Origin: Sulfurimonas hydrogeniphila
GTDB taxonomy: Bacteria > Campylobacterota > Campylobacteria > Campylobacterales > Sulfurimonadaceae
Direction of reading: 5' to 3'
DNA: 64,000 nucleotides
Assembly (NCBI RefSeq): GCF_009068765.1
Contig: NZ_CP035534.1
Span: 744,001-808,000, forward strand
A program made the translations under genes and the position numbers. The notes beneath the pieces are model-generated. The model did not search any database. It worked only from the letters and a program-made list of their open reading frames with translations, and was not told the DNA's origin. Positions 11,033 to 15,334 of this stretch are shown in pieces; within the stretch, counting starts at the first letter, position 1, and the number at the start of each line of letters is the position of its first letter.

Positions 11033-12670
11033 CTACGCGCCAGGAATAGACTGTCTGTGTTCGATAGAATATGTAAACGTCGGTGTTGTCAAACCTTCTA
11101 TATATTTAACAAATTTACCGGTTTTCGCTTCATAAATACCGATACGACCGGCATTCCACTCTGAAACCATTGTCCAATGACCATGATTAGCAGGTTCAGC
11201 ATGTAAAATACGAGGAATAATTACTTTGCCTTTTTTATCTTTAACAGTAGGGACTTTCCAACTGTAAAGTGTTTTATGCGTTACAGGATCTGTAATAGTT
11301 CCTTTTTTTGTACCGACTGTCAAAATTCTATCAGTCTCTAATGTTTGTTTGTTGATAAGGTAGATTTTATTCCAGTTATCTGGACCGCCGAGTACACAAT
11401 CAGACCAGATAAACGGTGTATGCTCACTTGTACCGACAAATAGACCGCCGCCTGCAGTTCTTACATGTGCAACAACATCCCAGTTGCTGTCCCAAATAAC
11501 TACATCACCGACATTCATACTGTTTGTCGCATAGAGTTGACCGTATCTGTCATTATACCATGATGAACCTTGACCTGGATGCGGCTTGCTTCCCGGACCT
11601 GTGTATACTTTGGCAACCAAAGATTTTGTTTTAAAGTCAACTACACCCATTACATCACTTCCTTGAGAAGCTTGCATTAGGTAACGGCCTATTTCTTTTC
11701 CTTCATTTTCAAAACCGTCATGCAGGATTTTACCGATATTTGGAATATCTCCGACAATTGGGAAGTTTGGTTTAGAATAATCTATAATATAGACATGCCC
11801 TGCATCTTTGAGTGCAAATGCAATATATGGACCGTATGGAGTATCATAGATACCTGCTACACGAGATGAACCGATATCTCCGTCCATGTTAATTACAGAT
11901 GAAGTTGGGTAAACTTTTAACGGCTCAAGTGTCATTGCATCCATTAAAATTGCACCGCCCGGAACATAGTTTCCTGCCATGAGGTATTTTCCATCAGGTG
12001 AAACTGCTAAACCACGAGAATCGGAACCGACTTGTACCTGTGCAATTTTTTGCTGACCTTTTGATGCAAGGTCAAACATAGTGACTAAACCCGAACGAGA
12101 GATTGAGTATGCATAACGAGGCTGACGTTTGTTTGTTACTGTTACGTGAACAGCGAAACCTGCAGGGTGACGTGAAAGTATTTTACCACTTGTGCCATCG
12201 ATAAAAGTAACTCTTTCTGCATCACGTTCTGTAACAAAACAAATATCCGTAACATGTTTTACATCTACTGCATGCGGATATTTTTTTAATAGCTTTGCTC
12301 TATCATTAAGTTTTTTCCAGCCTTGTTTTACCGCATCGAGCGTAAGGACTTCTATTTTTTTACCTTTGAAATGCTGAAGATAATCCACCATTTTTTGTGC
12401 ATCTGCTTGATTCATTTTATTTGCAAATGCAGGCATTGCAGTTCCGGGGCGACCATTTAAAATAACTTCAGCCAGACTGTATGCATTTTTCTTTTCTAAT
12501 TTTGCCGGACGCAAATCCGCACCGACGCCCCCTTCATGATTTGGACCGTGACAACCCTGACACTCTTTTTCGAACATTTTCTCAACATCCATATGCGAAG
12601 TACCCGCAAACAGACCTGAACTGACAACTGCAAACGCTGCAGCTGATATAACTAATTTACCTAATCTCAT
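11033..12670 (-). CDS. nirS: Cytochrome cd1 nitrite reductase
   Basis: Reduces nitrite to nitric oxide in the periplasm, the key step of denitrification. The 545 residues comprise a signal peptide (about 1-22), a cytochrome c domain with CQGCH at 37-41, and an eight-bladed d1 propeller from about 115. The propeller contains GFAVHVTV, where the proximal d1 ligand histidine is expected. It also contains HPGQGSSW and SEHTPF, which carry candidates for the two catalytic histidines. It lies downstream of norB and a 50-residue membrane gene and probably belongs to the nor-nir transcript. Length and domain order are those of canonical NirS. Confidence 0.95.
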   Translation of the reverse strand: MRLGKLVISAAAFAVVSSGLFAGTSHMDVEKMFEKECQGCHGPNHEGGVGADLRPAKLEKKNAYSLAEVILNGRPGTAMPAFANKMNQADAQKMVDYLQHFKGKKIEVLTLDAVKQGWKKLNDRAKLLKKYPHAVDVKHVTDICFVTERDAERVTFIDGTSGKILSRHPAGFAVHVTVTNKRQPRYAYSISRSGLVTMFDLASKGQQKIAQVQVGSDSRGLAVSPDGKYLMAGNYVPGGAILMDAMTLEPLKVYPTSSVINMDGDIGSSRVAGIYDTPYGPYIAFALKDAGHVYIIDYSKPNFPIVGDIPNIGKILHDGFENEGKEIGRYLMQASQGSDVMGVVDFKTKSLVAKVYTGPGSKPHPGQGSSWYNDRYGQLYATNSMNVGDVVIWDSNWDVVAHVRTAGGGLFVGTSEHTPFIWSDCVLGGPDNWNKIYLINKQTLETDRILTVGTKKGTITDPVTHKTLYSWKVPTVKDKKGKVIIPRILHAEPANHGHWTMVSEWNAGRIGIYEAKTGKFVKYIEGLTTPTFTYSIEHRQSIPGA

Positions 12671-12726: not shown

Positions 12727-12879
12727 CTAGTTTTCATTTTCCAAACGTTTCTTCTCCTGAAAATAGATCCAAATCATTGGAAGTATTATTATAGTGTGCA
12801 GAAAAATTGTTAAGGTCAAAGGACCTTGGTTAAGCCAACCGAAAAAACTCGGGTTGACATCTGTAAATGGTTCAAACAT
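12727..12879 (-). CDS. 50-residue single-helix membrane protein between norB and nirS
   Basis: A short gene easily missed by length filters. It encodes 50 residues starting MFEPFTDVNPSFFGWLNQGP, with one hydrophobic helix (LTIFLHTIIILPMIWIYF) and a charged tail (QEKKRLENEN). A strong AAGGAG lies a few bases before the ATG, and it sits 9 bases after norB. It resembles in build the small accessory subunits of heme-copper oxidases such as CcoQ. A role as a third NOR subunit, or in assembling NOR or NirS, is inference. The family is not recognised. Confidence 0.78.
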   Translation of the reverse strand: MFEPFTDVNPSFFGWLNQGPLTLTIFLHTIIILPMIWIYFQEKKRLENEN

Positions 12880-12888
12880 TGTATCTCC

Positions 12889-14322
12889 TTATCTTTCGTG
12901 TACTGGATTTTTACCAGTTGTAAGTAAATCTTTTGCCAAGAATATGAAACCTGTGAATGTAACTACACCCATAATGAGTCTCCAATCCATTGCTTGAGAA
13001 AACCACATTCCGCTTTGACCGTCAAAATATCCTGCCCAAGTAGCACCCATTTGTGCACGAGAAACAAGAACCTGTACATATCCTGCAATCGTAAGTGCTA
13101 CGGTCATGCCGACTACCCCACTAACTATTAGGCTAACAGCCCATATAGAGGCTTTCGTGTTTTTCATAATTTTAATCCCGTTTGTGCCTTGAACTGCAAT
13201 ATACATCATACCGACAAGAATAGTTGCATAAGCACCAAAGAAAGCTAAGTGCCCGTGTGCCGAAGTAAACTGTGTACCGTGAGTATAAAGGTTTACTTGA
13301 GGTAGTGTATGGAAAAATCCCCAAATACCTGCACCCAAGAAGTTACCAAAAGCATTAAGGACAAACCATGTAAATGCAGGCTTATTGTTAATAACAGAAA
13401 CATTGTTTCCTCTTGCTTCTTCTCCACCTTGCGTTTTACCCCAATCATAAAGTACATGAATAAACATAGCTACAAGCGGTAACGGTTCAAGTGCAGAGAA
13501 TAGTGCACCAATTTCCCACCAGTATTCAGGTGTACCAATCCAGAAGTAGTGGTGCCCAAGTCCAAGAATACCTGAACCGAAAAGCATTGCAACTTCTATC
13601 CATAACCACATTTCAACAACTTTACGGTGCGCGCCAATCATAGTAATAAGACCGTAAGCCGCAATCGCGCCAACGAAAACTTCCCAGGTAGCCTCAACCC
13701 ATAAGTGGATTACCCACCACCACCAGTACTGATCAACTGAAATATTGTCCGTAAAGAACATACCGGCCAAATAAAGACCTGCAAAGGCAATCATATCTGC
13801 CATAAGAACGGTGACAATTCCTGTCTGCTCCCCTTTCATTCCTGTTAAGAAAAGATTTCCGACAAATCCAAGTGCGACAACGACAATGCCCCAGTCAGCC
13901 CAACGAGGTGCTTCAATATATTCACGACCCTCTGTAATAAACCAGATTGTTGTTGCATCTGCAGGACCTACCTGAATGAACAGGTATACAAGTACAACGA
14001 CAACGATTGCTGCTGCAAAAATCCAAAACAAAAGCTTTCCGATTTTGATACCGACTGTCTCAATACCTGTCTCATCCGGCAGTAACCAGTAAACAGAACC
14101 AAACATTGCAAAGACCATCCAAACAACGAGTGCATTAATATGTATAATTCTGGCAATTGAAAAGTCCAGAACGCCATATAAAAAACCAGGCATTACATAC
14201 TGAATCGCTGCCACTAACCCGAAAAGTAATTGGGCGCCAAAGAGAATAGCTGCAAATGTAAAATACCATGTTGCCAACTGTTTTGATTCACTTCCGACAC
14301 CTGTTAAATATTTACTTGCCAT
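12889..14322 (-). CDS. norB: Nitric oxide reductase cytochrome b subunit NorB
   Basis: Reduces two nitric oxide molecules to nitrous oxide at a heme b3-FeB site in the membrane. The 477 residues have about twelve helices. Conserved histidines lie in ARIIHINALVVWMVF, VIHLWVEATWEVF (with the NOR glutamate), LGLGHHYFWIG and TSAHGHLAFFGAY. There is no fused quinol-oxidase domain, so this is the cytochrome-c-dependent type, matching the adjacent NorC. Its start overlaps the norC end by 11 bases. Confidence 0.96.
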   Translation of the reverse strand: MASKYLTGVGSESKQLATWYFTFAAILFGAQLLFGLVAAIQYVMPGFLYGVLDFSIARIIHINALVVWMVFAMFGSVYWLLPDETGIETVGIKIGKLLFWIFAAAIVVVVLVYLFIQVGPADATTIWFITEGREYIEAPRWADWGIVVVALGFVGNLFLTGMKGEQTGIVTVLMADMIAFAGLYLAGMFFTDNISVDQYWWWWVIHLWVEATWEVFVGAIAAYGLITMIGAHRKVVEMWLWIEVAMLFGSGILGLGHHYFWIGTPEYWWEIGALFSALEPLPLVAMFIHVLYDWGKTQGGEEARGNNVSVINNKPAFTWFVLNAFGNFLGAGIWGFFHTLPQVNLYTHGTQFTSAHGHLAFFGAYATILVGMMYIAVQGTNGIKIMKNTKASIWAVSLIVSGVVGMTVALTIAGYVQVLVSRAQMGATWAGYFDGQSGMWFSQAMDWRLIMGVVTFTGFIFLAKDLLTTGKNPVHER

Positions 14323-14965
14323 GAACTGCTCCTTTTATTTTTCCAAAGTTTCTTGGGAAGCCATTTGTGTCAATAGATGACATATGTTTCAAGAAAGCAA
14401 CTAAACCTTTAGCCTCTTTTGCTGTGATACCTAAATCCGGCATCATACGGGCATGTGTAGGATACTGGTCCGGATGCATAAGGAATTCAGCCATCGCCTC
14501 TTCTTTTGTGTTTTTCCCCGTTAAAGCCTGCATCGCACCATCTGGTCCCCATGCAGGGTCCAACCATGCTTTTGTTAAGTCAGGTGCATAGTATGCGCCA
14601 TTCCCAAGAAGTGTATGACAATCCATACAGTTTTTGGCCTGTGAGCCCAACTTGCCTAAGTGAAGTAAAGCCCCGGCTTCTTCTTCAGAATAGTCATCTC
14701 GACCAAAGAACTTTTCTTTTTCCCCAATCACAGGAATTTCATGACCACGTTTTGCGCTCATTTCATACGTGATTTTGTAATTTATAACGGTAGGTCCTGG
14801 AACCCTCTTCGTCACCTTGTTTTGTAGATCCTGATCATTTCCCATTGCAATCTGAGCTGACGTATCAAACGTTAGCCAAATTAAAAGAACTGATGCAAAA
14901 CCTGTAACCCACGTTGCTGTTCTTCGCCAGAAACGATTGTCACTCCATACAGATTTATTAGCCAC
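14312..14965 (-). CDS. norC: Nitric oxide reductase cytochrome c subunit NorC
   Basis: Membrane-anchored electron entry subunit of cNOR. The 217 residues have an N-terminal helix (TWVTGFASVLLIWLTF), then a periplasmic domain with CMDCHTLLGNGAYYAPDLT and a distal methionine candidate in HARMMPDLGI. The start is GTG with a strong AGGAGG upstream. Overlap with norB makes a stoichiometric pair. Confidence 0.95.
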   Translation of the reverse strand: MANKSVWSDNRFWRRTATWVTGFASVLLIWLTFDTSAQIAMGNDQDLQNKVTKRVPGPTVINYKITYEMSAKRGHEIPVIGEKEKFFGRDDYSEEEAGALLHLGKLGSQAKNCMDCHTLLGNGAYYAPDLTKAWLDPAWGPDGAMQALTGKNTKEEAMAEFLMHPDQYPTHARMMPDLGITAKEAKGLVAFLKHMSSIDTNGFPRNFGKIKGAVHGK

Positions 14966-15007: not shown

Positions 15008-15334
15008 TCAGTGTTCATTTTCTTCATGAACCTGATTTTGCATATAATAAACAGCAAATGGAAGTAAAAACAATCCAATTGCTGCGACAACTAAAGCTTT
15101 TGCAGTAAATTCCCCGACATGCATTAAACTTCCCATTAAATACAAACAATAGGCAGTCAATACCCAAAACATGTATGCAAAAAGCATACTCCACGGTTTT
15201 AGTAGTTTAACTTTTACTGCAGTATATATACCAACATAAAATCCTCCAAAAACTAACACAAGTGCTGACGATACAAATATAGTTAGAAAATCATCCAACG
15301 CAATTTCCGGTCTGATTATAGATGGATCGATCAT
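15008..15334 (-). CDS. Three-helix membrane protein heading the nor-nir operon
   Basis: The 108 residues contain three hydrophobic helices (about 15-38, 48-70 and 76-96) and a charged C-terminus (HEENEH). It is first in the operon ahead of norC and norB, directly behind the FNR-type promoter. Its position recalls NorE- or NorF-type NOR maturation proteins, but it is shorter than NorE and I cannot assign it. GGAG precedes the ATG. Confidence 0.75.
   Translation of the reverse strand: MIDPSIIRPEIALDDFLTIFVSSALVLVFGGFYVGIYTAVKVKLLKPWSMLFAYMFWVLTAYCLYLMGSLMHVGEFTAKALVVAAIGLFLLPFAVYYMQNQVHEENEH

Follow-up and report, generated by a model that had tools for sequence, protein, structure and literature searches.

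A 50-residue membrane protein encoded directly behind norB in Sulfurimonas hydrogeniphila is probably a dedicated single-helix partner of a cNOR whose assembly does without NorQ and NorD, the chaperones for iron insertion; a permanent small subunit is its most likely role. The gene lies in a window of 64,000 nucleotides of contig NZ_CP035534.1 (positions 744,001 to 808,000 of the forward strand; coordinates given below are those of the window), and our analysis confirms that it is a real, conserved protein-coding gene. Most work on FeB insertion into NO reductase has dealt with NorQD-dependent enzymes; Campylobacterota, among them those of vents and sediments, contain a widespread clade of NorQD-less NO reductases that has two conserved small membrane proteins instead. 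As the gene is shorter than the usual length limits of annotation and no family model covers it, it can be missed when the operon is annotated or expressed. Chaperone-less cNORs are already known as a subject (a 2025 FEBS Letters paper cited in PMC13036017 reportedly deals with cNORs that lack metal-inserting chaperones, and may already treat such operons), whereas the 50-residue family is without a description in the open-access full-text literature that we searched; an earlier description is possible.

A conserved small gene behind norB

The ORF, which we studied by ORF reading, tblastn, pN/pS and co-occurrence across 397 genomes, occupies 12727..12879 on the minus strand (stop codon included, read from 12879 to 12727) and encodes MFEPFTDVNPSFFGWLNQGPLTLTIFLHTIIILPMIWIYFQEKKRLENEN. 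It starts with ATG 9 nt past the norB stop codon, and its Shine-Dalgarno sequence, AAGGAG (12885..12890, minus strand), overlaps that stop codon and is kept in relatives. The original prediction of an unlisted 50-residue ORF at this position between norB and nirS is thus borne out exactly, and both the strong ribosome site and the 9-base gap after norB that it described can be read directly from the DNA. The same is true of the predicted single helix and charged tail: the protein contains one hydrophobic stretch (approximately residues 21–39), with no K/R ahead of it and three K/R behind it, an arrangement that by the positive-inside rule would give an N-out, C-in topology. Cysteines of the family are confined to the N-terminal segment, in which there are either none (103) or exactly two in the form CxxxxC (12); the pair is seen in three families (L119–L125, L134, L135, L141–L143), a single cysteine never occurs, and the pattern fits that expected for a putative periplasmic disulfide.

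A tblastn search of genome contigs with the 50-residue query found approximately 200 relatives. The best 80 of these 200 are 78–100% identical, all come from Campylobacterota or unclassified MAGs, and have an open frame in 80/80 cases with norB directly upstream in 80/80; the search across Campylobacterota that had been proposed as a check on the gene therefore speaks in its favour, and the frame disruption in close relatives that had been named as counter-evidence does not occur in this set. An identical protein is present in one MAG, and the nearest relatives of the window genome (a single contig of 2.34 Mb) are Sulfurimonas records. Codon changes relative to the window copy are mostly synonymous, with pN/pS values of 0.04–0.36 that are similar to those of norB in the same pairs; a Shine-Dalgarno-like site precedes 111 of 117 distinct copies, compared with 36% of shuffles. 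Within the near-invariant stretch NQGPLTLTIFLH, the synonymous third positions are free to vary, which argues that conservation acts on the protein and not on an RNA element. Of the 115 distinct proteins of the family, seven depart from an LN(Q/E) motif at L16 or N17; in the remaining 108, which could be aligned on this motif, P20, H28, P34, M35, Y39, E42 and K43 are invariant.

Searches of Pfam and NCBIfam with 70 family members at E up to 10 gave weak, unrelated matches only; a PDB sequence search with the 50-residue protein found no relative, and a plasmid collection searched with it gave no match. In the window, norB and the ORF are in frame with each other, with only one TAA and three codons between them (12879–12891). 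A norB-ORF read-through fusion is ruled out, as the in-frame relation is not conserved and the gap lengths vary among relatives; an AlphaFold model of the natural read-through join has a mean pLDDT of 70.7, with block means of 51–70 in the ORF helix, and carries no docking information. A terminator-like hairpin lies within the ORF on the coding strand (12812–12827); all six of its pairs are retained in only 36 of 117 segments, and the hairpin is therefore not conserved.

Association with a NorQD-less reductase clade

A strong match to the 50-residue protein (E<1e-20) is present in 73 of 397 whole Campylobacterota genomes. When these 397 genomes were searched with NorB, three groups could be told apart: clade 1, 66–100% identical, in 74 genomes; canonical cNOR, at 38–43%; and qNOR-like proteins, at 31–34%. 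Every one of the 73 ORF-containing genomes carries a clade-1 norB, with the ORF on the same contig and strand 12–128 nt past the norB match, and in the 74th clade-1 genome (G218) the contig terminates inside norB; the ORF is thus part of the norCB operon, and the two are found together in 73/73 assessable genomes, a co-occurrence whose statistic ignores genome relatedness and is to be read only as near-perfect overlap. No strong match was found in those of the 397 genomes that have only a canonical cNOR or a qNOR. The constant partner of the ORF is norB. Five genomes (G129, G307, G319, G365 and G388) contain both NOR types, that is, a clade-1 enzyme with the ORF and a canonical cNOR with NorQD.

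In the window, the clade-1 norB (12889..14322, minus strand) encodes a 477-residue protein of the COX1 family whose best PDB match is the NorB of 3o0r, and norC (14312..14965, minus strand) encodes the c-type cytochrome subunit, of 217 residues, which has one helix at its N-terminus. The gene order in clade-1 operons is 108-aa gene-norC-norB-50-aa ORF; canonical cNOR operons of the phylum have the order norC-norB-norD-norQ, with NorE-like and NorF-like genes next in some cases, and are without the 50-aa ORF. Of 80 genomes tested, 14 contain NorD, and these 14 also contain PF08406, the C-terminal family of NorQ; they are the canonical-cNOR carriers of the set, 14/14 of which have both proteins. 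Genome-wide searches found neither in the 66 genomes that have clade 1 only (0/66), including the window genome (G000).

Residues D220 and E222 of Paracoccus NorB are required for NorQD-dependent FeB insertion and have been proposed to bind NorD (PMC9976466). We assigned the corresponding column from its spacing to the FeB histidine pair: D and E are present in all 11 canonical sequences of our tree, and in clade-1 NorB the D220 column contains H/K/N/R/S in 118/118 sequences, with E222 kept as E in 35/118. In the window NorB, alignment places H-R-K (codons 232–234; 13621..13629, minus strand) where canonical enzymes have D220-R-E222, that is, H232 and K234 stand at the D220/E222 positions of the Paracoccus numbering. 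With neither norQ nor norD in its genome and neither D220 nor E222, the window NorB falls outside the NorQD-dependent canonical cNORs, to whose NorB it is approximately 37–39% alike. Its closest relatives outside the phylum, at 53% identity, are on Thermus plasmids and have P and R in place of D220 and E222. In our tree Thermus joins clade 1 with a support of 0.997, and the NorQD-type enzymes stand separately. Within the NorQD-type group of the tree, norQ/norD were not seen within 5 kb in Thiothrix.

Comparison with the Thermus reductase

The Thermus NOR has been described as a heterotrimer, NorC-NorB-NorH, with NorH as the third subunit (PMC5748679, PMC5015936); extra small subunits therefore have a precedent in the clade. 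The Thermus thermophilus NorCBH operon is like that of the window in its NorB (53% identical), in its order (norC-norB-small membrane gene-nirS) and in containing no norQ/norD. The small proteins themselves are unlike: NorH has 98 residues and three helices, whereas the protein behind the window norB has one helix, and its identity with NorH is ruled out by this difference, by its length of 50 residues and by an hhalign probability of 0.1%. The likely counterpart of NorH is encoded at the operon front, by a gene upstream of norC (15008..15334, minus strand) for a 108-residue membrane protein with three predicted helices, which occupies the same place in those fetched loci that have enough sequence. 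We base this assignment on the operon, on the common three-helix pattern and on a profile match, in which hhalign of the 108-residue profile against Thermus NorH gave a probability of 72% (E 3e-5 for a single comparison) over 80 columns. Plain BLASTP of Thermus NorH against the window 108-residue protein alone gave no match, the protein has no family match at cut-off, and a fold search with its model returned nothing significant. If the 108-residue protein is, as is likely, the counterpart of NorH, the 50-residue protein would be an additional component.

A recognisable counterpart of the 50-residue protein was not found in the Thermus operon, and this counts against our best explanation. Thermus NorC bears an extra N-terminal hydrophobic stretch, which the window NorC is without, and the charges on this stretch suggest the same orientation as that of the 50-residue protein's helix. 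A profile comparison of the 50-residue family with Thermus NorC found no similarity; that the two helices may be related is only a suggestion.

Function of the 50-residue protein

The best reading of these sequence data is that the 50-residue protein would serve a NorQD-independent cNOR as a single-helix subunit or as an assembly factor; gene linkage and shared occurrence are compatible both with a stoichiometric component and with a helper that binds only transiently. We favour a dedicated partner, most likely a subunit, a reading that draws on the strict association with clade-1 norB, the position behind norB, the lack of NorQD and D220 in that clade, the precedent of the Thermus heterotrimer and the retention of the ORF where nirS has moved or was not found. 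The small NOR subunit of the original prediction accordingly gains an exclusive genomic association, which is an association and not a proof of binding. Haem-copper oxidases are known to have small subunits of a single helix; subunit IIa of the Thermus ba3 oxidase, for example, is a single free helix that in other oxidases is part of a larger subunit, and it belongs to another enzyme and is likened to the 50-residue protein by description only. As a subunit, the protein would span the inner membrane, its short N-terminus lying in the periplasm and its EKKRLE tail in the cytoplasm; it would pack on NorB/NorC through the seven invariant residues P20 to K43; and it would help the NOR complex to assemble or to keep its iron-loaded state. 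A possible docking site would be next to the one helix of NorC, at the place that the extra N-terminal helix takes in the Thermus protein.

A transient assembly or maturation factor, absent from the final enzyme, might hold apo-NorB open or deliver haem or FeB; such a role would suit a clade without NorQD and without D220, as well as the invariance of H28 and M35 in the 108 aligned distinct sequences, since these two residues, at a spacing of seven, share one face of the helix and might contact haem or a metal. We nevertheless regard this role as rather unlikely, as the Thermus NOR operon is likewise without NorQD and without such a protein, which argues against a general substitute, and as qNOR too works without NorQD (PMC9976466). 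We also consider it doubtful, indeed unlikely, that the 50-residue helix and the NorH-like protein together form a built-in module for iron loading and stabilisation, which would give this cNOR clade its FeB without the NorQ/NorD ATPase and in which the free helix would be a detached equivalent of the extra N-terminal helix of Thermus NorC. The comparison with CcoQ made in the original prediction stands for architecture only: CcoQ (FixQ, PF05545) of the cbb3 oxidases is also a small, single-helix partner of a catalytic subunit of the haem-copper oxidase superfamily, alike in size and with a charged cytoplasmic tail. Its helix, however, is near the N-terminus and its tail is longer; hhalign against Campylobacterota CcoQ aligned nothing beyond the hydrophobic helix, at a probability of 9.7% (E 0.003 for a single comparison), 0/70 family members match PF05545 at E<=10, and the window genome encodes ccoQ elsewhere, all of which makes descent from a CcoQ-type stabilising subunit highly improbable. 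NorE and NorF of canonical cNOR operons are also unlike the 50-residue protein: NorE is COX3-like and the neighbouring 86-residue protein COX4_pro-like, and NorE/NorF occur with NorQD, whereas the 50-residue protein does not.

The position of the ORF before nirS (11033..12670, minus strand), which encodes cytochrome cd1 nitrite reductase, raises two further explanations. A cd1-type gene is usually downstream of the ORF, coding for either a NirS-like protein (57–93%) or a divergent one (approximately 30%), and its being next in most loci, including lineages with the divergent protein, would be in keeping with a protein that couples NirS to NOR, e.g. by tethering the cd1 nitrite reductase and passing on NO. 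The neighbour is usual but not obligatory: in G003 and G208 the ORF stays with norB and a different contig carries nirS; G334, whose genome is 99% complete, has the ORF with cobA as the next gene and no cd1 match at E<=1e-20, so that the ORF is not limited to genomes with nirS; and in L026, L048, L052 and L056 the gene that follows has the opposite orientation, with no nirS in the available sequence. The NO channelling from NirS to NOR that had been put forward for the protein is not supported in view of these cases, and we hold coupling of the two enzymes to be very unlikely. That the ORF is a translated leader or spacer which only regulates nirS expression is scarcely credible: such a role could draw on the same position and on the hairpin inside the ORF, but the hairpin is unconserved, the third positions vary freely, and the peptide is retained in G334, where no nirS was found.

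Two further features of these neighbourhoods were observed. In several lineages, a second, more distant cd1-domain gene (23–25% like NirS) follows the first in tandem (L126 7262–8878; L127 1489–3057; L138 1642–3234; L140 1492–3093). Two small genes, for proteins of approximately 123 and 124 residues that each have an N-terminal hydrophobic stretch, recur beside nor loci in several lineages (L026 5189–6064; L048 3732–5661; L181 3316–4162).
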